DNA of 47,498 nt from Gammaproteobacteria bacterium HGW-Gammaproteobacteria-3 (GTDB taxonomy: Bacteria > Pseudomonadota > Gammaproteobacteria > Methylococcales > Methylomonadaceae), in assembly GCA_002843155.1 (NCBI GenBank), contig PGZD01000013.1, positions 1-47,498 of the forward strand, read 5' to 3'. A model generated the notes under the pieces. That model was not told the DNA's origin. It did not search any database and saw nothing but the letters and a program-made list of their open reading frames with translations. Position numbers and translations under genes: made by a program. Every line of letters begins with the position of its first letter. The first letter of the stretch is position 1. Below, piece after piece: positions 17,263-31,888 of this stretch.

Positions 17263-17276
17263 ACGGGAGATTGAAA

Positions 17277-18239
17277 ATGATTAATAAATGTATCTTGCCC
17301 TGGACATTGATCGCAGCGGCTGTTCTGTTCGAAAGCCATGCCCACGCCGCCGAACCCGTGACATCGGCGATTCCCGGCGTGACGGCGGGCGGTGTCAAGA
17401 TCGAGCTGATCAAAGACGGCTTCAACGGCACCGAAGGGCCTATCGGTCTGCCCGACGGCAGCCTGATCTTCACCGAAACCCAGGCCGAACGCATTACCCG
17501 GATTTTTCCGGATAACACGGTCGTGTCCTTTTTAGAGCATTCCAACGGCGCGAACGGTTTGGCATTCGATGCCGACGGAGCGCTCTATGCCGTGCAAGTC
17601 TTGAAACCGAAGGTCGGTATCATTTATCCGGTCGGCAAGGAAAAAACACTGGCCGAAGATTTCGAGGGCACGCCGTTCCAACGGCCTAATGACTTGGTAT
17701 TGGATCATCATGGTGGTGTGTATTTCACCGACAGCGGTACGCGGGCGACTCCCGAGAATCCCAATCCGCCCAAGTCCAATCCTGGTGTGTTTTATATTTC
17801 GCCGGAAGGCAAATTGACACGTTTGGCGAGCGATATCGACCGTCCGAATGGGATTCAGTTGAGTAAGGACGAAAAAACGCTCTACGTCGCCAATACACTC
17901 GGTGAACATGTTTTGGCCTATGACATTACCCGTCCGGGTGAAATCGGTAACAAGCGCCATTTCGCCAAACTGGCCGGTTGGCAGGAGACCGAAACTGGCT
18001 GGTCCAGCGGAGCGGACGGTTTGGCAATCGACGACAAAGACCGGTTATATGTTACCTCGAATGCCGGTATCGAAGTGTTCGATCAAGACGGCAAGCCACT
18101 TGGTGTGATTCCGATCCCGAAGAAGCCGCAGAATCTGGCGTTTGCGGGGAAAGACAAGAAAACTCTCTATGTGGTGGGGCGCGGCGCGGCCTATAAAATT
18201 CCGGTATTGACGCCGGGCTATCTGGGACGGGCGAAATGA
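17277..18239 (+). CDS. Periplasmic SMP-30/gluconolactonase-like beta-propeller
   Basis: This 320-residue exported protein has a signal peptide ending AHAAEP and a six-bladed propeller sequence of the SMP-30/lactonase family. Likely metal ligands fall in the expected order: Glu53 (NGTEGPIGLPDG), Asn in RPNDLVLDHHGG, Asn in RPNGIQLSKDEK and Asp in GADGLAIDDKD. Members hydrolyse sugar or other lactones with a divalent metal; substrate is not predictable. The ATG at 17277 has GGGAGA 7 bases upstream and is preferred over an in-frame TTG at 17271. The gene begins 14 bases after the receptor stop, so it is probably co-transcribed and may act on the imported ligand. Confidence 0.85.
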   Translation: MINKCILPWTLIAAAVLFESHAHAAEPVTSAIPGVTAGGVKIELIKDGFNGTEGPIGLPDGSLIFTETQAERITRIFPDNTVVSFLEHSNGANGLAFDADGALYAVQVLKPKVGIIYPVGKEKTLAEDFEGTPFQRPNDLVLDHHGGVYFTDSGTRATPENPNPPKSNPGVFYISPEGKLTRLASDIDRPNGIQLSKDEKTLYVANTLGEHVLAYDITRPGEIGNKRHFAKLAGWQETETGWSSGADGLAIDDKDRLYVTSNAGIEVFDQDGKPLGVIPIPKKPQNLAFAGKDKKTLYVVGRGAAYKIPVLTPGYLGRAK

Positions 18240-18517
18240 GCCGAGTCAAGAGAAGCGCATAGCTGTTTTAAGAATTCAGTTTCAGGTTCCGGCAAGGCGG
18301 TCATCGAAAGGATACGTCCCTTATTTACGGCAAGTTTCTCCCCCCTGAGAACTTTTTATGAGAATAAGCGGTTTAACCACACCTACAAGGATGGGCAGCC
18401 GATACGGAATTTGAAACTGATTTAATTTAGAGCGATACGACTGTAATAAACGGGTATTTAGGATTTCGTAATAAATAACATCCTGGAGCTATGAGCTTTG
18501 TTGAAGGTTCGGTAACT

Positions 18518-18594
18518 CGCTTGACAGGACGCCGTGAATACGTCCGTGTAGGCTTGACGGCGGCTTTCCCTGCCGCCGACACCTGCCAATCGAG
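18518..18594. repeat. Extragenic palindromic repeat element
   Basis: Two nested hairpins lie side by side: GGACG (18527-18531) with CGTCC (18541-18545), and CGGCGGC (18558-18564) with GCCGCCG (18572-18578). The block reads like dispersed extragenic repeats common in methanotroph genomes, but only this copy is in the window, so the repeat status is inferred. The rest of the 440-base gap (18240-18679) holds no convincing gene. The dienelactone hydrolase frame is open through this element, but a translation start there has no support. Confidence 0.5.
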
Positions 18595-18679
18595 CAACCG
18601 AACCCTTCCTAAAATAGGGAAATTATTTACGACCAAATCCTTACGATGCAAACGAATTCAATTTCATCAGGAGCATGTC

Positions 18680-19570
18680 ATGACACGTAAAACGGCAAAA
18701 GACTTTGATCCCGAAGTGCTGAAACTTTTCGACCGCTATGTCCACGGCGATATTTCACGGCGTGGATTCTTGGCTTCGGCGGCTAAATTCGCGGTTGCGG
18801 GATTAACGGCGGAAGTATTGCTCGATGCGCTAAACCCGCGTTATGCCGAGGCGCAGCAAATCAAACCGGACGATACCCGCATTACCGCCGAGTATGTCGA
18901 ATATCCATCGCCTCAGGGCTACGGCAAGATTCGTGGCTATCGGGTAAAGCCGGCGCGGCTTGAAGGTAAATTGCCGACGGTCTTGGTGGTGCATGAAAAC
19001 CGTGGCCTGAACCCGCATATCGAAGACATTGCCCGGCGTGTCACATTGGATAATTTCATCGCTTTCGCACCCGATGCTTTGTATCCATTGGGCGGCTATC
19101 CAGGTGATGAAGACAAGGCGCGTGAGTTGTTCCAGCAGCTCGATCAGGACAAGACGCAAAACGATTTTCTGGCCGCTGCGGCGGTATTGAAATCGCTGCC
19201 TGAAGGCAACGGCAAAGTCGGCGTGGTTGGTTTTTGTTACGGCGGAGGCATTGCCAATTTCCTTGCCACCCGGATTGCCGATCTGGGCGCGGTGGTGCCG
19301 TTTTACGGCCGCCAACCGGCAGCGGAAGATGTCGCCAATATCAAGGCGCCGCTGCAACTGCATTACGCGGGCGAGGACGAGCGCGTCAATGCCGGTTGGC
19401 CGACTTACGAACGGGCCCTGAAAGACGCAGGCGTTGCCTATAAGGCTTACATTTATCCCGGCGTACAGCACGGTTTCAACAACGATACCACGCCTCGTTA
19501 CGACGAAGCGTCCGCCAAACTGGCTTGGGAGCGAACCATCGGTTTTTTCAACACTCATCTTCGCAGCTAA
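18680..19570 (+). CDS. Tat-exported dienelactone hydrolase family protein
   Basis: The 296-residue protein starts at ATG 18680 (AGGAG 8 bases upstream). It carries a twin-arginine type leader that begins some way in (SRRGFLASAAKFAVAGL, about residues 26-42). The alpha/beta-hydrolase domain has the dienelactone hydrolase nucleophile Cys186 in GFCYGGG, Asp233 in AGEDERVNAGW and His264 in QHGFNNDT as the probable triad, and the HENRG segment (105-109) with the partner glutamate. The family hydrolyses lactones or related esters. E. coli YghX-like proteins share this leader and layout. It follows the lactonase-like protein on the same strand but is separated by 440 bases with a repeat, so a separate promoter is likely. 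Confidence 0.87.
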   Translation: MTRKTAKDFDPEVLKLFDRYVHGDISRRGFLASAAKFAVAGLTAEVLLDALNPRYAEAQQIKPDDTRITAEYVEYPSPQGYGKIRGYRVKPARLEGKLPTVLVVHENRGLNPHIEDIARRVTLDNFIAFAPDALYPLGGYPGDEDKARELFQQLDQDKTQNDFLAAAAVLKSLPEGNGKVGVVGFCYGGGIANFLATRIADLGAVVPFYGRQPAAEDVANIKAPLQLHYAGEDERVNAGWPTYERALKDAGVAYKAYIYPGVQHGFNNDTTPRYDEASAKLAWERTIGFFNTHLRS

Positions 19571-19633
19571 CGGTTAACGAATATGAAACCGGGCATGTCA
19601 AGCGCTCTAATCATTTATTAGGAATTGAAGATC

Positions 19634-21778
19634 ATGCATTCAATGCGGTTAATGTTATTAGCAGTGATTGTGACGACTGTTTTGGGTAGTCAAGCCCATG
19701 CAATTTCGCATGAGGCGGCCACCGAACAAGTGACGGCACAACTGATCGCTTCGGTCGATGCCGTGCGCCCGGGCGATGAGATTTTGGTCGGCGTGCAGCA
19801 GAGAATCATTCCGCATTGGCATACCTATTGGGTCAATCCGGGCGATTCCGGTTTGGCGACCAAGATCGACTACACATTACCGGAGGGTGCGTCTGTCGGC
19901 GATATTCAATGGCCGACGCCGAGCCTGATTCAGCTGGGTCCCGTGATCAACTACGGCTACGAGAATGAGGTGACGCTTTTGTCGCCTTTGTCGGTGCCGA
20001 AGGATGCCGTCATCGGTGAACGTTTTCCGATCCAGGCAAAAGTGAAATGGTTGGTGTGCGAGGAAGTATGCATTCCTCAACAAGTCGATTTGGCTTTGGA
20101 GTTGCCTATCGTGAGTTTCGTCGAATCAACCGGGCCGGGCAGTCCGTTGATAGAGCGGGCGCTCGCAAGCTTGCCGGTGACGAGTCCTTGGCCGATTGAT
20201 GTTAAGCCGAGCGGCGACGACTTGACCTTGAGGATAAGCGGTAGCGAACTGAGTTCGGCGGAAATAACAACGGTTCGGTTTTATCCGGAACAATGGGGCA
20301 GGATATCGCATGGCGCTCCGCAGCAGGACAGGCAGGCCGATGATGCCATTGAATTAACCTTGCGTCCTGGCGAGGCGCCATTGTCGCTCGGAGAACCCTT
20401 GGTCGGCGTGTTGACCCTTACCGAGAACATCGAAGGTCAAGCGATAACGCGGGGTTATATCGTCAACGTCCCTTTGAGCGGCGGTTCGCCGGACATCACG
20501 GTGAATGATCCGCCCGCCTTGCTGTTGCCGTCGGCCATGTTGTTGGCGCTGTTGGGCGGCGTGATTCTGAACCTGATGCCTTGCGTGTTTCCGGTGCTGT
20601 CGATCAAAGCCTTGTCTTTGATCCAACATGCGCATGAGGCACCACGGCAAACCCAATTGCAAGGTTGGGCCTATACCTCCGGGATACTGGCAAGCTTTGC
20701 GTTACTGGGCGGTTTATTGATCGCCTTGAAAACCGGGGGCGCGCAAATCGGCTGGGGGTTTCAATTTCAATCGCCATTGTTCGTGTTGGCTGTGGCTTAT
20801 TTGATGTTTGCGGTCGGGCTCAGTCTGTCCGGTGTGTTTACGATCGGCAACTCGATAGTCGGCGTCGGGTCCTCGCTCGCGCAGCGCTCCGGTTATTCGG
20901 GAAGCTTCTTTACCGGCGTGTTGGCCACGATCGTGGCAACCCCCTGCACGGCGCCGTTCATGGGCGTGGCTCTTGGGTTCGCGCTATCCCAGTCGCCTGT
21001 CGTGTTGCTGGCGGTTTTTCTGAGTTTGGGGTTTGGGCTGGCCTTGCCTTATTTGTTGCTGAGTTACTGGCCTGCCTTGCAAAGACGCTTGCCCAAGCCC
21101 GGTGTCTGGATGGACCGCTTGAAACAAGGCTTGGCTTTTCCCATGTATGGAGCTGCCGTCTGGCTGGTGTGGGTATTGGCGCAGCAGGCCGGATTGAACG
21201 CGGTTGCCGTAGCCTTGGGCGGCATGGTCGCGATCAGCTTTGCCGCATGGCTTTATGAGACCACCAAATACTCGAATGCTGGCGCACGGCGCAGTGGTGC
21301 CGGTTTTGCCGGAGTGGCCTTGGCGGCGGCATTGTTGGGCGGGTATGGGTCTGTCGAAACACCGGCCTCGGCTGTAACGTTTGAGAGTGAACAAACTCCG
21401 CAAAAAAACTGGGAGCCCTATAGCGCCCTGCGTTTAGCCGAGTTGAGGGCAGAGGGTAAACCCGTTTTTCTGAATTTTACCGCTGCCTGGTGTATCAGTT
21501 GCCTGGTCAACGAGCGGGTTGCACTGAGTCAAGCATCGGTGATCGACGCCTTCGAGCAATCGGGTATTACCTATCTGAAAGGCGATTGGACGAATCGAGA
21601 TGCTGAAATTACAAAAATTCTTGCAGAATTCGGTCGTAGCGGCGTGCCGCTTTATGTTTATTACCCGGCGGGAATCGATGCCGAACCGGAGGTATTGCCG
21701 CAACTATTGACGCCGGAAATTGTGACTCAAACGGTTACTGCGCCATCGAAGTTTGTGTCGTTGGCGATTAGGCACTGA
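19634..21778 (+). CDS. DsbD/ScsB-type thiol:disulfide transmembrane reductase
   Basis: This 714-residue protein contains all three parts of the DsbD/ScsB family. The N-terminal periplasmic domain has a redox pair CEEVC (about residues 142-146). The central eight-helix membrane domain has single cysteines in LMPCVFPVLS (about 316) and VATPCTAPFMG (about 437). The C-terminal thioredoxin domain has CISC (about 619-622). Electrons pass from cytoplasmic thioredoxin through the membrane cysteines to periplasmic partners. The large N-terminal domain is closer to ScsB-like proteins than to classical DsbD. The start ATG 19634 follows AGGAATTGAAG and gives a clean signal peptide (SQAHAIS). A redoxin and cytochromes downstream are plausible electron acceptors. 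Confidence 0.9.
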   Translation: MHSMRLMLLAVIVTTVLGSQAHAISHEAATEQVTAQLIASVDAVRPGDEILVGVQQRIIPHWHTYWVNPGDSGLATKIDYTLPEGASVGDIQWPTPSLIQLGPVINYGYENEVTLLSPLSVPKDAVIGERFPIQAKVKWLVCEEVCIPQQVDLALELPIVSFVESTGPGSPLIERALASLPVTSPWPIDVKPSGDDLTLRISGSELSSAEITTVRFYPEQWGRISHGAPQQDRQADDAIELTLRPGEAPLSLGEPLVGVLTLTENIEGQAITRGYIVNVPLSGGSPDITVNDPPALLLPSAMLLALLGGVILNLMPCVFPVLSIKALSLIQHAHEAPRQTQLQGWAYTSGILASFALLGGLLIALKTGGAQIGWGFQFQSPLFVLAVAYLMFAVGLSLSGVFTIGNSIVGVGSSLAQRSGYSGSFFTGVLATIVATPCTAPFMGVALGFALSQSPVVLLAVFLSLGFGLALPYLLLSYWPALQRRLPKPGVWMDRLKQGLAFPMYGAAVWLVWVLAQQAGLNAVAVALGGMVAISFAAWLYETTKYSNAGARRSGAGFAGVALAAALLGGYGSVETPASAVTFESEQTPQKNWEPYSALRLAELRAEGKPVFLNFTAAWCISCLVNERVALSQASVIDAFEQSGITYLKGDWTNRDAEITKILAEFGRSGVPLYVYYPAGIDAEPEVLPQLLTPEIVTQTVTAPSKFVSLAIRH

Positions 21779-22070
21779 GCGACAGATATCGTAAACAAAT
21801 GCATTTTGATAATGCAAAGAATTTGGTTTTGGGAAAAATGCTGGATGCGCAATTTCCCGTAATGGAAAGCGATTAATTGACCGGGCCGATAGCGAGGGGA
21901 GGCGCAATCCAGCCTAATTGGGAATCAATTCGGGTATCGGTGGAAACTGTAAGAGTTCATCTGTCGGTTTTTATGATCGCACTTGACGGACCAATCAGGG
22001 CGGGAGAACGAAGGATCGACTTCCGTCTTTTTATGAAAGTCGACAAATTTTTGGCTGGGGGCAAATCACT

Positions 22071-22508
22071 ATGATTACGATTATCCAAAGGTGGCTATCC
22101 AAACTAACGAAGCAACGGCGCATGAGCCTAGCCTTGATCGCGTTTGGTTTGCTTATCACGATGCCCGGCATGATGGGTCATGCTTTCATTTGGATCGTCA
22201 TTCATATCTATGAAATGCTTGAATTTATTCTTGATGAAGCCATCCATCATTTTTTTGAGACGAGCCGGCATGCTACGCAAGTCATCGTTTTTTACCTGAT
22301 GGCCGGATTGTTTCTGTGTGGTTTTTATCTGTTGGTGCGAAGACTGCTTGTGCTTTATCGCCATGCCGTCAACGTCTACCCGCAATGGCGGAATGTTCAA
22401 AAGGAAAAGATCACCGAATTTTGGGCAAGCTTGTCTTGGGTCAATAAGATACAAGTCTTTTTTGGAAGCACATTCAGCGGGGCATTTCTTGTCCTATGGG
22501 TGTTTTGA
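22071..22508 (+). CDS. Small His-rich membrane protein, unknown function
   Basis: The product is 145 residues with three probable membrane helices (about 20-48, 66-92 and 125-145). The first loop region is rich in His and acidic residues (HAFIWIVIHIYEML, DEAIHHFFETSRHATQ), which could bind a metal or heme, but no known motif is complete. A GGGGG run at 22054-22059 may be the ribosome site. I do not recognise the family. It sits between the DsbD-like transporter and an exported redoxin, so an envelope redox role is possible but not shown. Confidence 0.6.
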   Translation: MITIIQRWLSKLTKQRRMSLALIAFGLLITMPGMMGHAFIWIVIHIYEMLEFILDEAIHHFFETSRHATQVIVFYLMAGLFLCGFYLLVRRLLVLYRHAVNVYPQWRNVQKEKITEFWASLSWVNKIQVFFGSTFSGAFLVLWVF

Positions 22509-22640
22509 GCGATTTTGCCGTAATGAATGTAAACCGATTAGCCATTAAAGGAGCCGAGAATGATTTAACAATCCGTCAAATGACAAATAAGCCGATTACG
22601 TTTTTTAGCCATTCAATTAATATTTTTAAGAGAGTCCAGT

Positions 22641-23261
22641 ATGAAATTAAAAAATCTTTCACACATTACTTTAGCGAGTCTTATTTTCGGATTGCTGTCT
22701 TTAACCGCCAATGCCGAACCCGTCGTGGATCAACCTGCTCCGGTCTTTTCGGGCGCCGCTGCCGACGGCAGCACTATTAAACTGGAGGAGCTCAAAGGAA
22801 AAACCGTGATACTGGAATGGACGAATCACGAATGTCCGTTTGTGGTCAAACATTATGAAAGCGGCAATATCCCGAATTTACAAAAAGAAGCTTCGGCCCA
22901 AGGTTTTGTTTGGCTTCAGGTGATTTCGTCGGCGCCGGGAAAACAAGGCCATGTGGATGGCGACACGGCGCGTAGGCTCAATGAAGAGCGCGGCGCGACG
23001 CCGACCAATACCGTGTTCGACGATGATGGTTCAATCGGGAGGCTGTACGGCGCCACGAACACGCCGCAGTTTTTTATCATCAACCCCGAAGGCATACTCG
23101 TTTATAAGGGCGGCATAGACAGTATCGCTTCGGCCGATAAAGCCGATATTGCGCAAGCTGAAAATTATATAAGTTTGGCTTTTGCCGATCTGGCGGCAGG
23201 TAAAAAGATTGCAAAATCCAGCACGAAACCTTATGGCTGTACGGTCAAGTATGCAAGTTAG
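22641..23261 (+). CDS. Exported redoxin (AhpC/TSA-thioredoxin-like)
   Basis: The 206-residue protein has a signal peptide ending TANAEP and a thioredoxin-fold domain. The expected active-site region reads EWTNHECPFVVKHYES, with one cysteine (Cys65) instead of a CxxC pair. A second conserved cysteine lies at the C-terminus in KPYGCTVKY (Cys200). This pattern is typical of a redoxin subgroup in which the distant cysteine probably resolves the first. Likely role: periplasmic peroxide or thiol chemistry, possibly reduced by the DsbD/ScsB-type protein encoded upstream; that pairing is inferred. The start has AGAG upstream. Confidence 0.82.
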   Translation: MKLKNLSHITLASLIFGLLSLTANAEPVVDQPAPVFSGAAADGSTIKLEELKGKTVILEWTNHECPFVVKHYESGNIPNLQKEASAQGFVWLQVISSAPGKQGHVDGDTARRLNEERGATPTNTVFDDDGSIGRLYGATNTPQFFIINPEGILVYKGGIDSIASADKADIAQAENYISLAFADLAAGKKIAKSSTKPYGCTVKYAS

Positions 23262-23369
23262 GTTTTGTCGAATAAATAAAGACGTCATGAGGCCGAGCGT
23301 TCGCCTGTTTCGCATCGGTGATTGGCGGCAGACGCATAGGAATTATGTTAGATAAAAAGGGGGAATAAA

Positions 23370-24074
23370 ATGAAGACTACGGTAGACGTTTGGGATCTTC
23401 CTGTTAGGTTGTTTCATTGGACTTTAGTGCTGGCGTTGGTGGCGGGTTATATAACGGCCAGACTCGGAGGGTCTTGGATCGATTGGCATGGCCGCATCGG
23501 GCTTCTGATTTTAGGCTTGCTGATCTTCAGGTTGGTCTGGGGCTTTACCGGTTCAACCCATGCGCGATTTGCGAGTTTTTTTCCGACCTGGGGAAGGCTT
23601 TCAGCTTATTTCAAAGGTCAATGGCAAGGTATCGGGCATAATCCATTGGGTGCGCTTTCGGTATTGGCTTTGTTGGCTTTGTTGTTTTCACAGGTCGGTA
23701 CGGGGTTGTTCGCCAACGATGATATCGCCTATGAAGGACACCTATTCTCTTTGATTGATAAAACGACCAGCGATCGCATGACGGGCTGGCACAGCTCGAT
23801 TTTCGATGTTTTGCTGTTGTTGGTGGGCTTGCATATCGCTTCGATCATTTATTATCGGTTTATCAAGAAAAATGATTTGGTCAGGCCGATGTTGACAGGG
23901 AAAAAACAGGTCCCCCAAGCGTTGTCAGTACCCACTGCTAGCGTAGGCTCGACCCGTTTTGTCGTTTCACTGTTATTGACCGTTATTGTGGTTTGGGGCG
24001 TCGCAGAAGGTGCGTCCCAATTTTCTCCCCACGCGAATCTTCAGCAAACGGCCCAATCCGCACCGAGTTTTTAA
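23370..24074 (+). CDS. Cytochrome b561-family membrane protein
   Basis: The 234-residue integral membrane protein opens VWDLPVRLFHWTLVLALV, the typical start of prokaryotic cytochrome b561/hydrogenase-b subunits, with His in helix 1. Further candidate heme ligands are His in DWHGRIGLLILG, and His in WHSSIFDVLLLLVGLHIASI in helix 4. A fifth hydrophobic stretch near the C-terminus (FVVSLLLTVIVVWGVAEG) looks like an additional anchor. Such proteins transfer electrons from quinol to periplasmic c-type cytochromes. The cytochrome c' gene downstream makes that the obvious partner. The ribosome site is GGGGGA just before ATG 23370. Confidence 0.88.
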   Translation: MKTTVDVWDLPVRLFHWTLVLALVAGYITARLGGSWIDWHGRIGLLILGLLIFRLVWGFTGSTHARFASFFPTWGRLSAYFKGQWQGIGHNPLGALSVLALLALLFSQVGTGLFANDDIAYEGHLFSLIDKTTSDRMTGWHSSIFDVLLLLVGLHIASIIYYRFIKKNDLVRPMLTGKKQVPQALSVPTASVGSTRFVVSLLLTVIVVWGVAEGASQFSPHANLQQTAQSAPSF

Positions 24075-24098
24075 CACGTTGTGCGACACGTTTTTAAG

Positions 24099-24217
24099 GT
24101 AACTGTTCACACCCCCAGGCAAGTATTCAGTCCCTTTCTTTGAGAAAAGGGGCTAGGGGAGAATTTTTAGATAAATCCCCCCTCGCCCCCCCTTTTCCGA
24201 AGAAGATGAACAGTTAC
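24099..24217. repeat. Long imperfect inverted repeat (MITE-like hairpin)
   Basis: The outer arms are an exact 11-bp inverted repeat, GTAACTGTTCA (24099-24109) and TGAACAGTTAC (24207-24217). Inside, a purine-rich left arm (GAGAAAAGGGGCTAGGGGAG) faces a pyrimidine-rich right arm (CCCCCCTCGCCCCCCCTTTTCC) as an imperfect stem. The 119-base unit could fold almost end to end. It resembles widespread intergenic AGGG-rich palindromes. It lies between the cytochrome b561 and cytochrome c' genes and may uncouple them. Confidence 0.6.
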
Positions 24218-24385
24218 TTTTTAAGTGTTATATCGATGTCAAAGCCTATATGGTCATATTCAACCAGCACCTAAATTTCATGGTTGACCACCTTGGATAA
24301 TTTAGGCGCCGGGGGGAACTAGATTTGTGGCTCAATATTTGCTTTAACTTTTTTGTATTTTTATGACTACATGGAAATGATACCA

Positions 24386-24847
24386 ATGAAGAAAAAAATT
24401 ACCTTAACCTTAATTCTAGCCGTATCCTCGACCACAGCCTTAGCCGGTCCCATCGAAGAACAAATCCGATTCCGGCAATCGGCTTATTCGTTCATCGGCT
24501 GGAACACGGCAAAAATCAAGAAACACGTCGTGACTAACCCCGAGAGCTATAACAAGGAGTACGTCGCGGCTGCCGCAAACGCGATTGCCGCAGCGGCTAA
24601 TTCCGGTCTTGGCGAGCTTTACGGAGAGGGCACCGATCAAGGTATCGGTTGGAAAAAAACACGCTTAAAGCCGGAATTTTTCCAGAAAAAAGACGAAGTT
24701 GTCAAAGTCGCGAACGACTTCAATCTGGCCGCCAATGAACTGGCCAAAGTCGCGGCGTCGGGCGATATCAGTGTTATCAAGGAAAAATTCGGCAAGCTGA
24801 CCGATACTTGCAAAAGCTGCCATGATCTGGTCCGCATCAAGGAATAA
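24386..24847 (+). CDS. Cytochrome c' (class II c-type cytochrome)
   Basis: The 153-residue precursor has a signal peptide ending TALAGP and a four-helix-bundle sequence. The heme motif CKSCH is near the C-terminus (about residues 142-146), as in all class II cytochromes c. The first helix has an RQSAYSFIGWNTAKIK segment in the expected place. Cytochromes c' bind NO and CO at a five-coordinate heme and are thought to protect against nitrosative stress; in methanotrophs they are common. The start at 24386 (GGAAATG upstream) is preferred over in-frame ATGs at 24353 and 24371, which would disrupt the signal peptide. A strong hairpin terminator follows. Confidence 0.9.
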   Translation: MKKKITLTLILAVSSTTALAGPIEEQIRFRQSAYSFIGWNTAKIKKHVVTNPESYNKEYVAAAANAIAAAANSGLGELYGEGTDQGIGWKKTRLKPEFFQKKDEVVKVANDFNLAANELAKVAASGDISVIKEKFGKLTDTCKSCHDLVRIKE

Positions 24848-25181: not shown

Positions 25182-25476
25182 GTGGATCTGGGGTAAATGC
25201 ATTTTTTTTCGCTGCCGATAAACCTCCAACATACTGAAGCAATGCCTTGCCCCGCTGAATGGCGGCTATCTGCCTGCATTTGTCATTCCAGATTGAATTA
25301 TGGCCCGACAATTGCTGCAACATTATCGAATACCGGCCCATACCGCAAAGTCAACGACTGCAGAACCTGAACTGTCAGTAATGACCCGCGACCGGCATGA
25401 AATATCGACTCGGGGAAAGAGGACTTCACGACTCAGCACCCATTTTTATATACCATTTTTAAAGAGAGCAATTTCA

Positions 25477-25938
25477 ATGAAGCAAACGAGCACACTGGCG
25501 ATGATTTTACTGGTTCTGGCAAGTCCTTTGGCTGTTGCCGGAGCCCATCAGAAAAACGACGAACAATCCACCAAATCTCAGACGTCCGGTTATCAAGCCT
25601 CCTCGCCGCAAATCAAACGGGCTGGTTTGGAAGCACTACTGGCAAAGCCTGAGCATTTGTTGATCATCGATCTGCGCGATCCTCATGAAATCAGCGCCAT
25701 CGGCGGCTTTCCCGCCTATCTCAATATTCAGGCGAAGCAGTTGGAAAGCCATTTGGCGTTCATTCCCAAAGACCGGACGATCGTGACCGTATCGAATCAT
25801 GGCGGGCGCTCCGGCAAGGCGGCCGACCTGCTGGCCGCCAACGGCTTCAAAGTGGCCGGTTGGTTGGGTGCACAATATTACGAGGAAGAAGGCGGGCATT
25901 TGGTCAAAGCCCCTTTATCCAAAAAGGACGCTCAATAA
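25477..25938 (+). CDS. Exported rhodanese-like protein lacking the catalytic cysteine
   Basis: The 153-residue protein has a signal peptide ending AVAGAHQ and a rhodanese domain (about 48-146): LLIIDLRDPHEIS is the typical CH2A-like region, and TIVTVSNHGGRSGKAADLLAANGF is the active-site loop region. Active rhodaneses have C-x4-R at this loop. Here the position is Ser106 (S-N-H-G-G-R), and no cysteine occurs anywhere in the protein. It therefore should not carry a persulfide by the usual route and may be a binding or sensory domain. ATG 25477 has AAAGAGAG upstream. It starts an apparent operon with the DUF1549/DUF1553 gene (34-base gap). Confidence 0.83.
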   Translation: MKQTSTLAMILLVLASPLAVAGAHQKNDEQSTKSQTSGYQASSPQIKRAGLEALLAKPEHLLIIDLRDPHEISAIGGFPAYLNIQAKQLESHLAFIPKDRTIVTVSNHGGRSGKAADLLAANGFKVAGWLGAQYYEEEGGHLVKAPLSKKDAQ

Positions 25939-25972: not shown

Positions 25973-28561
25973 ATGAAAAAGAACATCAACTTTAGAAAGC
26001 GCAAACTCTATTTCGCAACTTTGTACGGCCTGGCCGGGTCGCTGGCTCTCAACGGCCTGGTGAACGCCAATGCCGGGACGGATTTGTTCAATAAACCGGT
26101 CGGCGCCATCGGTCAATCCAAACAGCTCGATTTATTCAGTCAACCCGTTGGCAACATAGGGGCTAAAGCCACGAATAATCGCAAATCGAGTATTTACAAA
26201 AGTAACGAACAACTGATTATCGACGCATTCGGTGAAACCGGTCAGTCCAAAGTCAGTGGCGAAAAGCAACAGGCAGAGCAATTGTCCGCCGTGCAGACCG
26301 ATAAGCCTCAAGCTTCATCAAGGCGTAAATCCAGACACTGGTCCTATCAGCCGATCGCGCGCCCCGACGTTCCTGGCGTGCAAAACAGCGCCTGGGTGCA
26401 TACCCCGATCGATGCTTTTGTCGTTAAAAAACTGGAGGAAAAAGGCATCACACCTTCGGCAGAAGCGGACAAGGCTACACTGGCACGGCGTATCTACTTG
26501 GATGTGCTTGGATTTATCCCTACTCCCGAGGAAGTGGATGCTTTCGTCAAGGACCAATCGCCCGATGCCTATGAAAAGCTGGTGGACAAAGTGCTGGCTT
26601 CACCGCATTACGGCGAACGTCAGGCCCGCTTGTGGCTGGACTTGGCGCGTTACGCCGACAGCTCCGGGTTTCAGATAGACAGCAACCGGCTCAACAACTG
26701 GCGCTATCGCGATTATGTGATCAACAGCTTCAACGAAGACAAACCGTACAGCCGGTTCATTCAGGAACAAATCGCCGGGGACGAGTTGTGGCCGGGTGAT
26801 GAAAACGCGCTGATCGCTACCGGATTCATGGCACAGTTTCCAGATAACGCCAACTCCCGAGATTTCTTCGGCCGGCGCTATCAGATCATCACCGACATCA
26901 CCGACACGGTCGGCAAAGTCGTTCTGGGACAGACTTTAGAATGCGCCCGCTGCCACAATCACAAATTCGATAAAATCAGCCAGAAAGATTATTTCGCGTT
27001 GCAGGCGTTTTTCGCCAACATCAATTATGTCGATAATGTACCGGTCGCGAAGAAAACCGCGCTGGAAGTTGCCTACGACCAGCAATGGGCGCAATGGGAG
27101 GACGCGACCAAAGAACTTCGAGGCAAAATGAAGGCGATCCTCGATGCCGACCGCGAGGCCGCGCTTAAATACCATAAAGAGCGCTATCGCGAAGACTCCC
27201 AGGCGGCCATTTTCAAACCGCAAGAGCAATGGACGGCGCTGGATCGCTGGGCCAATCATCGTCTGGAGCGGGTCACCAACGACCGATCACTGCTCAATTA
27301 TTTCCAGGATCGGGCTGCCAGCAAGGATCCCAAGTTTCATAGCGATTGGCATGCCGAAAAATTCGCCGAGCTGAAAGAACTTGGGGAAGCATTGAAAAAA
27401 TTCGACGCCGTGAAACCGCCGATCGAGCTGGGATCGACCAAAATCGACGCCATTACCGAGCTGGGTTATAGCGATGTGCCACCGACTTATGTGCTGGAAG
27501 TTGGAAACCGCACCAAGCCGAAAGAAGAAGTCCAGCCAGCTTTTCCGGAAGCTATCACCGATGCCAAGCCGGACATACAGCCTACCGGATTTTCATCAGG
27601 GCGGCGCGCGGCATTGGCCAAATGGCTGACCAGTGAGGACAATCCTTTGACGGCGCGGGTATTCGTCAACCGGGTCTGGGATAAATATTTTGGCCAGGGT
27701 ATCGTGACTACGGTCAGCGATTTCGGCAAGGCAGGAGAGAAACCCAGTCATCCCGAATTACTGGATTATCTGGCCAGTCGGTTCGTAAAAGAGGGCTGGA
27801 GCGTGAAAAAACTGCACAGGGAGATTCTGTTGTCCAGCGTCTACCGGCAGTCTTCCAGCGAGCGGCCCGAGGTTGTCAAAGCCGATCCGGACAACGAATT
27901 GCTGGCGGTGTTTCCGCACAAGCGCCTGGAGGCCGAGCAGATCCGTGATTCGCTGCTGGTGGCGTCGGGCGAGTTGAACGACAAAATCGGCGGTCCCAGC
28001 GTGTTGCCGCCGCTGCCGAAAAACGCCGGCGATCAGGGCGATACCGGCTTTGGTATCGGCGACCCGTTCTGGCCGGTGTCCAAAAATCCTGACGATCACA
28101 ACCGCCGCAGCCTGTATATCTTTACCCGGCGCAGCAAGCCTTACCCGATTCTGAGTGATTTCAATATGGCCGAAGCCTCTCTTGCGCACAGTAAGCGAGA
28201 AGTGACCACCACGCCGCTGCAAGCCTTGACGTTGTACAACAGCGAACTCATTTTCGGCTGGTCCAAGGCGCTGGCGGGCAAGATTATCAACGAAGCCGGC
28301 AACGACGAACAGGCGCAACTGGACAGGCTCTACCAGGTTTTGTTCGCGCGCGCGCCCAGCGATCAGGAACGCCAGTTACTGAAGGGCTTTTTACAGGAAC
28401 AGCAACAAGTGATCGCCCAGCAAGCGAGTGACAAAGGGGAGTTCGCCGTTAATGTACCGGTGGGTGTCAAGGAGCCGATTAAGGATCCGTTGCGAGCCGC
28501 AGCCTTTGTCGATCTGGTGCATACCGTGGTCAATGCCAATGAATTCGTTTACCGGTTCTGA
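25973..28561 (+). CDS. DUF1549/DUF1553 protein with a CxxCH motif (Planctomycetes-type)
   Basis: This 862-residue protein has a hydrophobic leader (about residues 12-34) and an unusual 11-residue duplication, DLFNKPVGAIG (37-47) and DLFSQPVGNIG (53-63). The DUF1549 domain follows (about 130-360: TLARRIYLDVLGFIPTPEE, RLWLDLARYADSSGF) and contains CARCHNHKFDKI (near residue 324), a possible c-type heme site conserved in the family. The C-terminal DUF1553 domain (about 540-840) shows NPLTARVFVNRVWDKYFG, HPELLDYLA and RRSLYIFTRR. Most known members are from Planctomycetes and Verrucomicrobia and are of unknown biochemical function. The DUF1501 partner begins 35 bases downstream, the same pairing as in those phyla. 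Transfer from such a lineage is plausible. Confidence 0.87.
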   Translation: MKKNINFRKRKLYFATLYGLAGSLALNGLVNANAGTDLFNKPVGAIGQSKQLDLFSQPVGNIGAKATNNRKSSIYKSNEQLIIDAFGETGQSKVSGEKQQAEQLSAVQTDKPQASSRRKSRHWSYQPIARPDVPGVQNSAWVHTPIDAFVVKKLEEKGITPSAEADKATLARRIYLDVLGFIPTPEEVDAFVKDQSPDAYEKLVDKVLASPHYGERQARLWLDLARYADSSGFQIDSNRLNNWRYRDYVINSFNEDKPYSRFIQEQIAGDELWPGDENALIATGFMAQFPDNANSRDFFGRRYQIITDITDTVGKVVLGQTLECARCHNHKFDKISQKDYFALQAFFANINYVDNVPVAKKTALEVAYDQQWAQWEDATKELRGKMKAILDADREAALKYHKERYREDSQAAIFKPQEQWTALDRWANHRLERVTNDRSLLNYFQDRAASKDPKFHSDWHAEKFAELKELGEALKKFDAVKPPIELGSTKIDAITELGYSDVPPTYVLEVGNRTKPKEEVQPAFPEAITDAKPDIQPTGFSSGRRAALAKWLTSEDNPLTARVFVNRVWDKYFGQGIVTTVSDFGKAGEKPSHPELLDYLASRFVKEGWSVKKLHREILLSSVYRQSSSERPEVVKADPDNELLAVFPHKRLEAEQIRDSLLVASGELNDKIGGPSVLPPLPKNAGDQGDTGFGIGDPFWPVSKNPDDHNRRSLYIFTRRSKPYPILSDFNMAEASLAHSKREVTTTPLQALTLYNSELIFGWSKALAGKIINEAGNDEQAQLDRLYQVLFARAPSDQERQLLKGFLQEQQQVIAQQASDKGEFAVNVPVGVKEPIKDPLRAAAFVDLVHTVVNANEFVYRF

Positions 28562-28596: not shown

Positions 28597-30039
28597 ATGC
28601 ATAATTCATCACGTCGTGAGTTTTTAACTAAAACCGGTATTGGCTTAGGCGGTCTAACGGTTAACTCGCTGTTTCCGGGCGGGGGACTGATCTCCAGTGC
28701 GCTGGCGGCGGAAAATCCCCTGGCACTAAAAACGCCGCATTTTCCGGCTAAAGCCAAAACCGTAATTTGGCTGCATCAGGACGGCGCGCCGTCCACGCTG
28801 GACTTGTTCGATTACAAACCGGTGCTGCACAAAATGGCGGGCGAAGGCCAGGCGGTGCCGGCGTCCTTTCTGAAAGACATCGTCACCGCCACCCAGGGCG
28901 GGGTCACCAAGTTGATCGCCACGCCGCGCCAGTGGAAGCAATATGGCGAAAGCGGCGCCTGGTTTTCGGATTGGGTGCCGAATCTGGCCCGTCATGCTGA
29001 CGATCTGGCCTTCGTCAAATCCAGCGTCACCGTCGGCGCGACCCACGACATCTCGATTTTGAAGCTCAATACCGGTGATTTGAATCCGGGCCGCCCGACA
29101 CTGGGAGCTTGGGTGCAATACGCCTTGGGTTCGGCCAATCCCAACCTGCCGGCCTATGTGGTGTTATACAATGATACGAAAGAACCGCGCGCCGGTGCGG
29201 TCAACTGGTCATCCGGGTTCTTGCCGGCGGTTTATCAGGGCACGCCGTTCCGTCCTACCGAATCGCCGATACTGCATCTGGATGACCCGAAATATCTGGC
29301 GCGTCAGGAAAAACGACAAGCGTTGAATTTGTTGTCCGGTTTGAACCGCTTGCAGGCGGAAAACTTTCCTTCCGACAGTGAATTGAGAGCCCGCACCGAG
29401 TCCTACGATCTGGCCTACCGAATGCAGGAAACCGCACCGGAAGCGGTGGATATCAGCAAGGAATCGGAAGCCACCAAGGAATTGTATGGCCTGAACGATC
29501 CGGTCAGTCGCGGATACGGCGAAGTTTTGTTGCGGGCGCGCCGTTTGACCGAGCGTGGCGTGCGCTTCATTCAGGTGGTGACCGGACCACAAGAGGTCGA
29601 TGGCGAAAAAAGGAATTGGGACGCTCATGAAAACATCGAAGACAACCATAGGATCATGGCCCGTTCGGTCGACAAACCGATTGCCGGTTTGCTGACCGAT
29701 CTGAAAACCTTGGGTTTGTTGGAGTCCACGCTGGTGGTCTGGACCTCTGAATTCGGCCGCACACCCTGGAGCGAATCGGGCGATGGGCGGGACCATAATC
29801 CTTGGGGCTATACCCAATGGATGGCGGGGGGCGGTGTCAATGCCGGTTACACCCACGGCGCCACCGACGAAATAGGCCTAAAAGCGGAGAAGGGCAAGGA
29901 AGTAGATACCTATGATCTGCACGCCACCGTGCTCAACCAGCTGGGCCTGGATCACCTGAAGGTTATCTATAAACATCAGGGCCGTTCAGAGCGGCCGACC
30001 GTGGTTCATGGCAAAGTAATCAAGGAGCTCATCGCTTGA
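28597..30039 (+). CDS. Tat-exported DUF1501 protein
   Basis: The 480-residue protein begins with a twin-arginine leader (SSRREFLTKTGIGLGGL, residues 4-20). It then has the DUF1501 features: KTVIWLHQDGAPSTLDLFDYKP, RGVRFIQVVTGPQ, WDAHENIEDNHR, LVVWTSEFGRTP, GRDHNPWGYTQWMAGGG. DUF1501 proteins share the alkaline-phosphatase/sulfatase-type fold; these Asp/His-rich motifs probably bind metals, although activity is unknown. It is encoded immediately after the DUF1549/DUF1553 protein, its constant partner elsewhere, so the two probably act together in the periplasm. The ribosome site is TAGGAGA. A hairpin follows the stop. Confidence 0.87.
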   Translation: MHNSSRREFLTKTGIGLGGLTVNSLFPGGGLISSALAAENPLALKTPHFPAKAKTVIWLHQDGAPSTLDLFDYKPVLHKMAGEGQAVPASFLKDIVTATQGGVTKLIATPRQWKQYGESGAWFSDWVPNLARHADDLAFVKSSVTVGATHDISILKLNTGDLNPGRPTLGAWVQYALGSANPNLPAYVVLYNDTKEPRAGAVNWSSGFLPAVYQGTPFRPTESPILHLDDPKYLARQEKRQALNLLSGLNRLQAENFPSDSELRARTESYDLAYRMQETAPEAVDISKESEATKELYGLNDPVSRGYGEVLLRARRLTERGVRFIQVVTGPQEVDGEKRNWDAHENIEDNHRIMARSVDKPIAGLLTDLKTLGLLESTLVVWTSEFGRTPWSESGDGRDHNPWGYTQWMAGGGVNAGYTHGATDEIGLKAEKGKEVDTYDLHATVLNQLGLDHLKVIYKHQGRSERPTVVHGKVIKELIA

Positions 30040-30187: not shown

Positions 30188-30574
30188 ATGCGAAATATGA
30201 TCATTCTCTTAGGAATCATTTTTGTAACGATGAGTGGGTATGTTCGTGCCGAAGCGGAATTTGATTTTGAAGAATTGATGGAAGCGGTTGAGGACAATGC
30301 GCACGAGTTACAGGCATTCATTGTGAATGAAGATGCCGACAATAGTTTGAAGCTGACGCAGGAGCTCAAAGAAGCTTTTCAGCGCGTCGGAAACTATTTC
30401 GATGCTTGGGGCGACGCTCAGGATGCCGTGGATGATTCTAAGCAATATCAGAAAAAGCTCGATGAAATTACCGCCTTTCTACAGCAAAAAGATTTTGGTT
30501 CGGCCTCTAGTGCTGCGGTCGATTTTGCCAAAAACTGCGACAAGGCCTGCCACGATAAATACAAACCACTTTAA
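30188..30574 (+). CDS. Exported cytochrome c'-like protein with CxxxCH motif
   Basis: The 128-residue precursor has a signal peptide ending VRAEAEF and a strongly helical, acidic mature region. Four amphipathic segments can be drawn, as in cytochrome c' or cytochrome b562-type bundles. The C-terminal signature is CDKACH (Cys117, Cys121, His122), three residues between the cysteines instead of two. The placement near the C-terminus matches class II cytochromes c, including the gene at 24386. Heme attachment to CxxxCH is rare, so it may be a real variant heme protein or one that has lost heme. AGAAGGA lies upstream. The peroxiredoxin gene follows after 12 bases. Confidence 0.72.
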   Translation: MRNMIILLGIIFVTMSGYVRAEAEFDFEELMEAVEDNAHELQAFIVNEDADNSLKLTQELKEAFQRVGNYFDAWGDAQDAVDDSKQYQKKLDEITAFLQQKDFGSASSAAVDFAKNCDKACHDKYKPL

Positions 30575-30586
30575 AGGAATACTTAT

Positions 30587-31159
30587 ATGAAAAAATTGAT
30601 CTTAGCTTGCTTGTTGCTGACTATCGGTGTGGCCAACGCCGCGCTGCAAGAAGGCGATGTAGCCCCGGAATTCAAAACTCGGGCCTCGCTGGCCGGAAAA
30701 GATTTCGATTGGTCTTTGCAGGAATCATTAAAAAAAGGTCCGGTTGTGCTTTATTTCTATCCTTCGGCTTATACCGGGGGTTGTAACATTCAGGCGCACG
30801 ATTTTGCCGTCAAGCATGATCGATTTGTTGCGGCGGGTGCCTCGGTAGTGGGTATATCCCTCGACAGTATCGAGCGATTGAATGAGTTTTCCGCCGATCC
30901 CGATTATTGCGCCGGTAAATTTCCTGTCGCTTCCGACCCTGAAGGGCGGATTGCGCAATCGTTCGAATTGTCAATAAGAGAAGCTCAGCCCGGTAGAAAA
31001 GACAGTCGGGGCGTAGAGATAGACCATGGTTTTGCCGAGAGAACGACTTTTATCATAACGCCAGACGGTAAGGTGGCGGCCACCATCGGTGGATTGAGCC
31101 CTTCGGAAAATGTACAAGCGGCTCTTGATGCAGTGCAAAAATTGACCAAAGGCAATTGA
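30587..31159 (+). CDS. Exported peroxiredoxin (AhpC/TSA, Bcp-like)
   Basis: This 190-residue protein has a signal peptide ending VANAAL and a peroxiredoxin domain. The peroxidatic cysteine is Cys66 in FYPSAYTGGCNIQAHDF (usual motif TxxC after YP). A second cysteine, Cys108 (DPDYCAGKF), could resolve it. Cys7, the only other one, lies in the leader. PVASDPEGRIAQSFE and RTTFIITPDGKV are typical later motifs. It would reduce peroxides in the periplasm, where most Bcp/PrxQ proteins are cytoplasmic. It is 12 bases downstream of the CxxxCH protein, so the pair is probably co-transcribed. Confidence 0.87.
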   Translation: MKKLILACLLLTIGVANAALQEGDVAPEFKTRASLAGKDFDWSLQESLKKGPVVLYFYPSAYTGGCNIQAHDFAVKHDRFVAAGASVVGISLDSIERLNEFSADPDYCAGKFPVASDPEGRIAQSFELSIREAQPGRKDSRGVEIDHGFAERTTFIITPDGKVAATIGGLSPSENVQAALDAVQKLTKGN

Positions 31160-31275: not shown

Positions 31276-31563
31276 TTAGGCTAAATAGCCCCATTGCTTA
31301 AATTGCTGCTGTAATTCTGGTTCGTTTTTAAATGCTTGGAAATAAATATATTCAGGTGCCAAATCAGCACCATTTGACCAAACAATCGTATCCAGCTCTT
31401 TATCAACGGCTAAGCTTGAAAACATTGACTTATTTTTTAAGGGTTCAAACATTGCCCCCCTCAAGGCATCTGTTAAATCAGCTATACCTTTTCGCCCATT
31501 ATTAAAGGTTACTTCTATTTTATAATCTTCCAGATATTGAGCATCAGTAACATGAAGAAACAT
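31276..31563 (-). CDS. DUF2442 family protein
   Basis: The 95-residue protein matches DUF2442: VTDAQYLEDYKIEVTFNNGRKGIADL at the start and a typical TIVWSNGADLAPEYIYFQA near the end. It begins 5 bases after the DUF4160 gene on the same strand. DUF4160/DUF2442 pairs are frequent in bacteria and have been suggested to be toxin-antitoxin-like, but activity has not been established to my knowledge. Confidence 0.85.
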   Translation of the reverse strand: MFLHVTDAQYLEDYKIEVTFNNGRKGIADLTDALRGAMFEPLKNKSMFSSLAVDKELDTIVWSNGADLAPEYIYFQAFKNEPELQQQFKQWGYLA

Positions 31564-31568
31564 AATTC

Positions 31569-31826
31569 TTACTCCAATGGTTTAATCGCTTTTGGCGCTT
31601 CATCTTTTTGACAAAGTTCCCAGTTCTCTATTAACTCTTCCCTGTGTAATTCATACCATTCAAAGACATGATGCAACGCTCGCTTTGGAAATTTTCCTTC
31701 TACTACACCTGAGAGAATATTCACGGTAACTTCATACTCGCCATATTTTGCATGAAAATGTGGTGGGGCGTGATCGTCCCGGTACATGGCGATGATTATT
31801 CCAAGAAACCGGCTTATGACAGGCAT
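31569..31826 (-). CDS. DUF4160 family protein
   Basis: The 85-residue protein carries the DUF4160 signature IIIAMYRDDHAPPHFHAKYGEYEV. The DDHxPPHFH segment is strongly conserved in the family and looks like a metal or nucleic-acid contact site. I chose ATG at 31826 (GGGAA upstream) over an adjoining TTG. It is coupled to DUF2442 downstream. Function is unknown; the pair resembles a small two-gene module gained by transfer. Confidence 0.85.
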   Translation of the reverse strand: MPVISRFLGIIIAMYRDDHAPPHFHAKYGEYEVTVNILSGVVEGKFPKRALHHVFEWYELHREELIENWELCQKDEAPKAIKPLE

Positions 31827-31888
31827 CAAAGCATTCCCATTTTTATAAAAACCCCGTTAATTTTGCCATAATCTGTAAAAGCAAGAAC

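Follow-up and report, generated by a model that had tools for sequence, protein, structure and literature searches.

A family of cytochrome c'-like proteins with a conserved C-x3-C-H motif in a redox operon of Methylomonadaceae

Introduction

Among the closest described systems to the protein reported here are small helical heme proteins. Cytochromes c-556 and b562 are low-spin four-helix cytochromes with His/Met ligation; b562 has no heme cysteines, unlike the protein treated below. The E. coli Ccm system, as Allen et al. reportedly found in 2009, matures b562 variants with CXnCH motifs, n = 3 included. Another small helical cytochrome, Kusta0087/Kusta0088 (PDB 6r6m), which we take to be NaxLS of anammox, is peculiar in its His/Cys ligation.

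In the accessible parts of the literature, a heme motif with three residues between its cysteines (CX3CH) is mentioned mostly as a peculiar site within multiheme proteins, or else as a count in motif searches. The CXXXCH site of MmcA from Methanosarcina acetivorans takes heme, as seen by mass spectrometry (PMC11024163); this organism is an archaeon, with Ccm machinery distinct from that of bacteria (PMC9084895). CX3CH also occurs in ImcH proteins and in some homologues of CymA (PMC6295460), and genome surveys include it among the heme motifs that they count (PMC10734462, PMC13386937, PMC11434368, PMC6759336, PMC5566968). Such counts rely solely on the motif (as in PMC11434368) and may therefore include unnamed single-heme CX3CH proteins. 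Studies of heme-motif spacing have given mixed results (PMC4158909). Our searches of the open-licence literature found no report of a single-heme class II family with a fixed CX3CH. Cytochrome c'-like proteins and CX3CH hemes are both known; what our searches did not find described is a class II single-heme family in which CX3CH is fixed throughout. The protein analysed here shares its motif spacing with MmcA, ImcH and the CymA homologues. Whereas those proteins are multiheme, the small class II-like protein treated here has CX3CH as its sole heme motif; the motif is fixed across the protein family, and orthologues with CXXCH occupy a matching locus in another taxonomic family of the order.

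Results and discussion

The gene and its product

We analysed a window of 47,498 nucleotides, i.e. the whole stretch of contig PGZD01000013.1 under study, from Gammaproteobacteria bacterium HGW-Gammaproteobacteria-3 (Methylococcales, Methylomonadaceae). The first-pass annotation had singled out a small plus-strand reading frame with a C-terminal CDKACH, in which three residues separate the cysteines, and had set it against a nearby cytochrome c' with CKSCH. Translation confirmed the former at 30188-30574, and the latter was located at 24353-24847.

30188..30574, + strand: CX3CH class II cytochrome-like protein, 128 aa (ORF, translation, orthologue alignment)
30188..30250, + strand: probable signal peptide, residues 1-21 (by eye from translation and alignment; low pLDDT over residues 1-22)
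30278..30280, + strand: codon of the invariant Met31, candidate distal heme ligand (Met in 31 of 31 aligned rows)
30536..30553, + strand: CDKACH motif, residues 117-122 (C-x3-C-H), codons of C117 to H122
30554..30571, + strand: D-K-Y-K-P-L tail, residues 123-128, directly after CDKACH
24353..24847, + strand: ordinary cytochrome c' (CKSCH), PF01322 at 99 bits, used as comparison gene

The C-terminal end of the 128-aa protein reads NCDKACHDKYKPL. In the alignments, D, Y and K of the tail take positions +1, +3 and +4 after the heme His of cytochrome c'. At the other end, the leader is hydrophobic; cleavage was judged by eye to fall after A21 (between A and E of V-R-A-E), with the mature part starting at about E22. 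From this leader, the protein is probably exported and periplasmic.

Conservation of the C-x3-C-H motif

A profile search of 311 genomes of the order yielded a match in 56, the window's own included, and the motif was read in all of them. C-x3-C-H occurs without exception in the 53 full-length orthologues from the window's taxonomic family (window included, one per genome), by which a chance motif is ruled out. A 25-residue fragment near a contig end (L079, 6628-6702, genome G177) is the 54th same-family case, and the two remaining genes, from another family, have CXXCH. At L079 only the last 25 residues of the protein are encoded; the gene is possibly truncated or frameshifted there. Since 255 of the 311 order genomes, many of them from the window's family, gave no match at the profile cut-off used, the gene is far from universal.

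A search of 101 relatives located the gene in 17 genomes, again including the window's. The family profile, run across the class (369 genomes), matched 3 further genomes weakly, all with CXXCH; no CX3CH orthologue turned up outside the window's taxonomic family. The named genome collection contributed 23 loci, from Methylomonas, Methylobacter, Methylovulum, Methyloglobulus and Methylococcales/Methylococcaceae bins. The restriction of CX3CH to one family, with all 23 named loci in methanotroph genera or such bins, would suit a binding site for copper or another metal. CxxxC is the metal site in Sco-type proteins, methanotrophs of this kind depend on copper, and within a helix CxxxC brings both thiols near one face. 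Against this stand the column-by-column alignment with heme-binding cytochromes, distal Met and post-His residues included, and the existence of CXXCH orthologues; we regard a metal site as extremely improbable.

An alignment of homologues, the check proposed with the first-pass annotation, showed CxxxCH to be conserved and both cysteines and the histidine to be kept. It comprises 31 distinct rows, 29 with CX3CH and 2 with CXXCH. M31, C117, C121, H122 and Y125 are invariant across all 31 rows, and K126 is found in 29. Between the cysteines the residues vary, whereas the spacing, both cysteines and the histidine are fixed in the CX3CH orthologues. This pattern holds over considerable divergence, the 28 other CX3CH rows having 42-56% identity to the window protein. 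The dN/dS ratio (counting method) was 0.02-0.15 in 10 of the 11 pairs compared; the eleventh, window versus L002, was saturated. As these ten close pairs indicate, the gene is under strong purifying selection. Decay to a pseudogene is ruled out by the dN/dS values together with the residue invariance.

The same alignment speaks to the role of the first cysteine. From C121-H122 onward the spacing of cytochrome c' is kept and only the first Cys is displaced, as would be expected if the extra residue abolished the first bond, leaving a single thioether at C121 with C117 free or structural. However, C117 is as invariant as C121, both across the 31 rows and in each of the 54 matched genomes of the window's family, and MmcA shows that CX3CH is accepted in another protein. 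We consider a single thioether quite unlikely.

Kinship with cytochrome c' and fold

On its own, the window protein scores 22.5 bits against PF01322, below the Pfam gathering cut-off of 26.5, and a search of NCBIfam gave no meaningful match (best E 0.14). Across the family the signal is clearer: 28 of 31 members match PF01322 at E <= 0.01, and 10 of 31 match PF07361 (cytochrome b562) likewise. Profile-profile comparison with 89 cytochrome c' sequences from the gammaproteobacterial class gave a probability of 97.7 (E 1.7e-12) over residues 27-127 and 96 columns. The affinity to class II cytochromes claimed at the outset is borne out by this comparison and by the PF01322 matches of the family. 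In a PDB profile search, cytochrome c' chains (among them 2xle, named Alcaligenes xylosoxidans) top the list with a weak best E-value of 0.024, and CddaCHDkYK is placed on C-KACHDAYK/R with a one-residue gap.

Position by position, likeness and difference go together. As in cytochrome c', the heme motif lies in the C-terminal helix of a predicted four-helix bundle and an aromatic residue and Lys/Arg follow the His: of the 89 cytochrome c' sequences, 88 have F or Y in the column of Y125 and 82 have R or K in that of K126. Unlike there, one extra residue separates the cysteines, and Phe27 occupies the position at which 51 of the 89 sequences have an Arg in helix 1. Met31 falls on the distal-residue column, as Met does in cytochromes c-556 and b562. 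Since Met is also the commonest residue of that column in the surveyed cytochrome c' set (56 of 89, with Phe in 21 of 89), Met31 is no proof of six-coordination.

These comparisons raise the question of whether the protein might be the same kind of heme protein, yet a five-coordinate cytochrome c' that binds NO or CO rather than an electron carrier. Kinship by profile comparison, the retained D/Y/K behind the heme His and the best PDB matches, which are cytochrome c' chains and in some cases NO complexes, are compatible with gas binding. By contrast, Phe27 in place of the helix-1 Arg, the invariance of Met31 in 31 of 31 rows and neighbouring genes that resemble an electron-transfer module point away from it, and we hold this function to be unlikely.

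The AlphaFold model has helices at 27-46, 50-74, 78-99 and 103-125 (mean pLDDT 82.2, pTM 0.74). The structure prediction suggested earlier as a check accordingly returned a four-helix bundle and not another fold. Foldseek found no match to the model below E 0.001. The structure matches obtained are a mixture of cytochrome cb562, cytochrome c', designed bundles, FliS and PsbQ; as cytochromes appear among designed and unrelated bundles, fold comparison alone names no family. The VIA Z values were 12-14, a range for which the tool cautions that a similar packing of helices can by itself produce a match. In VIA, the model aligns over its helical part with heme-free cytochrome variants (8del, 8den) from one end to the other, model residues 25-126 on chain residues 1-106; if this alignment is ungapped at both ends, Met31 and His122 would fall on the b562 ligands Met7 and His102. 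Kusta0087/Kusta0088 (6r6m) also resembles the model (Z 12.7, 99 residues aligned, rmsd 2.3), but unlike the cytochrome c' kin it was not among the PDB sequence matches.

The ordinary cytochrome c' gene and the CX3CH gene are the sole PF01322 matches of the genome at E <= 1. The first-pass annotation had suggested a divergent paralogue; a close paralogy of the two did not hold: there is no protein-level match between them, and a protein search of the own genome returned the query alone. The close-paralogue reading was rejected on these grounds and on that of the conserved operon place which the CX3CH proteins have to themselves. They are an orthologous family in its own right with a fixed position in a conserved operon. 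In a survey of PF01322 (132 of 369 class genomes matched), all 90 members taken, namely the top 30 and 60 chosen among the matches listed, had CX2CH and none had CX3CH. This survey is biased, as the window protein itself (E 0.003) is missed at its cut-off of 0.001, and CX3CH members elsewhere could therefore be overlooked.

Orthologues with CXXCH

Two orthologues (G081, G096; loci L080, L081) belong to a different family of the order and carry CKDCH and CKACH. Both rows show a single-residue gap within the motif and end without D-x-Y-K-P-L; four helices are predicted for a CXXCH orthologue, too (pLDDT 75.7, single-sequence prediction). We computed a tree from the 31 family rows and 12 of the 89 cytochrome c' rows. 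Read from the cytochrome c' side, the CXXCH pair lies inside the CX3CH rows, at a fork with values of 92/81 that is not starred; the branches concerned are very long, and the program warns of them. If the cytochrome c' rows are disregarded, a branch (100/100) has the CX3CH rows together on one side, and by taxonomy the CXXCH pair belongs to a different family from the CX3CH orthologues. The motif may have expanded in the CX3CH family or contracted in the CXXCH pair.

Operon neighbourhood

The genes around the CX3CH gene in the window are the following.

25300..25938, + strand: rhodanese-like protein, start uncertain (upstream in 32 of 42 loci)
25973..28561, + strand: PSCyt2 and PSD1 (DUF1549/DUF1553) protein, CARCH motif codons from 26942 (upstream in 38 of 42 loci)
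28597..30039, + strand: DUF1501 protein, 445 bits, 148 bases before the CX3CH gene (upstream in 42 of 42 loci)
30587..31159, + strand: peroxiredoxin-like protein (AhpC-TSA), 12 bases past the CX3CH stop (downstream in 42 of 42 loci)

Counts refer to 42 loci of at least 5 kb with the whole gene; some genomes are represented twice, and the fragment L079 was left out. In the 4 loci without the PSCyt2/PSD1 gene, the contigs end within 1.8 kb upstream, and contig ends also account for some of the missing rhodanese and diheme neighbours. C-x2-C-H-x-H of the PSCyt2 domain is kept in every orthologous match that extends over it (36 of 36). Downstream, 37 of 42 loci have a gene related to the window's diheme cytochrome c. 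In the window itself, no diheme cytochrome c gene was seen behind the peroxiredoxin gene; its place, at 31276-31829, is taken by two short ORFs on the minus strand (95 and 86 aa), and a diheme homologue is found elsewhere, at 1634-2224. Gene order at the CXXCH loci L080 and L081 differs only in that the diheme gene precedes the peroxiredoxin gene, that a cytochrome c' gene follows and that no rhodanese gene was found. At three loci, L039, L071 and L072, the DUF1501 and CX3CH genes are separated by an SMP-30-like gene; L039 and L071 are apparently one contig.

The peroxiredoxin gene only 12 bases downstream, together with the DsbD-like and AhpC-TSA genes in the window, lends some weight to the proposal that heme was lost and that C117 is paired with C121, as a disulfide or as thiols, for instance in a partner of that peroxiredoxin. 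Yet a plain disulfide needs none of His122, Y125 and Met31, all of which are invariant, and the orthologues in the matching operon are CXXCH proteins. We judge heme loss to be highly unlikely. Of the two possibilities raised in the first-pass annotation, retained heme is favoured over heme loss.

A heme probably attached through CX3CH

The CX3CH protein would best be explained as a periplasmic single-heme class II (cytochrome c'/c-556-like) cytochrome with a four-helix bundle. Heme would be attached by the Ccm System I via the expanded C-x3-C-H motif, with His122 as proximal ligand and the invariant Met31 of helix 1 as likely distal ligand (low-spin, electron-transfer type); CcmF and CcmH are encoded in the genome. 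Two invariant Cys, the His and the distal-column Met are what a covalent His/Met heme needs, and we found no single alternative that explains all four residues as well as the CXXCH orthologues at the matching locus. In our judgement, it is highly probable that the protein is a c-type heme protein, and likely that both thioethers form. Attachment through CX3CH in a class II fold, a claim common to the electron-carrier and gas-binding readings, also appears likely.

As an electron carrier, the CX3CH protein would most likely serve the adjoining redox module, i.e. the PSCyt2/PSD1 protein with its own CxxCH, the DUF1501 protein, the peroxiredoxin and, in most relatives, the diheme cytochrome c; the gene neighbourhood tips the balance slightly towards this role. 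Whether CX3CH, in this lineage-fixed class II family, tunes heme geometry and potential for a dedicated PSCyt2/PSD1-DUF1501 partner is in our view an even bet.

With a CX3CH family and its CXXCH orthologues, the effect of one residue on attachment, strain, ligation and redox potential becomes testable in natural proteins. If the heme assignment is true, a single order with both motif lengths would offer a natural pair for testing motif spacing. Motif searches limited to CXXCH will miss the CX3CH protein.

Some observations concern the wider surroundings. At L018 (7860-9521) and L033 (8410-10080), a large membrane protein, presumably of the PepSY type, follows the operon; at L018 it is followed by what we take to be a sigma-54-type regulator. 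In the window, a cytochrome b561-type membrane protein adjoins the ordinary cytochrome c'.

23370..24074, + strand: cytochrome b561-type membrane protein

Both genes lie in a region (14461-24847) that also encodes a TonB-dependent receptor, SMP-30 (17271-18239), a dienelactone hydrolase, a DsbD-like protein and an AhpC-TSA protein; these genes possibly make up one larger redox/uptake cluster.
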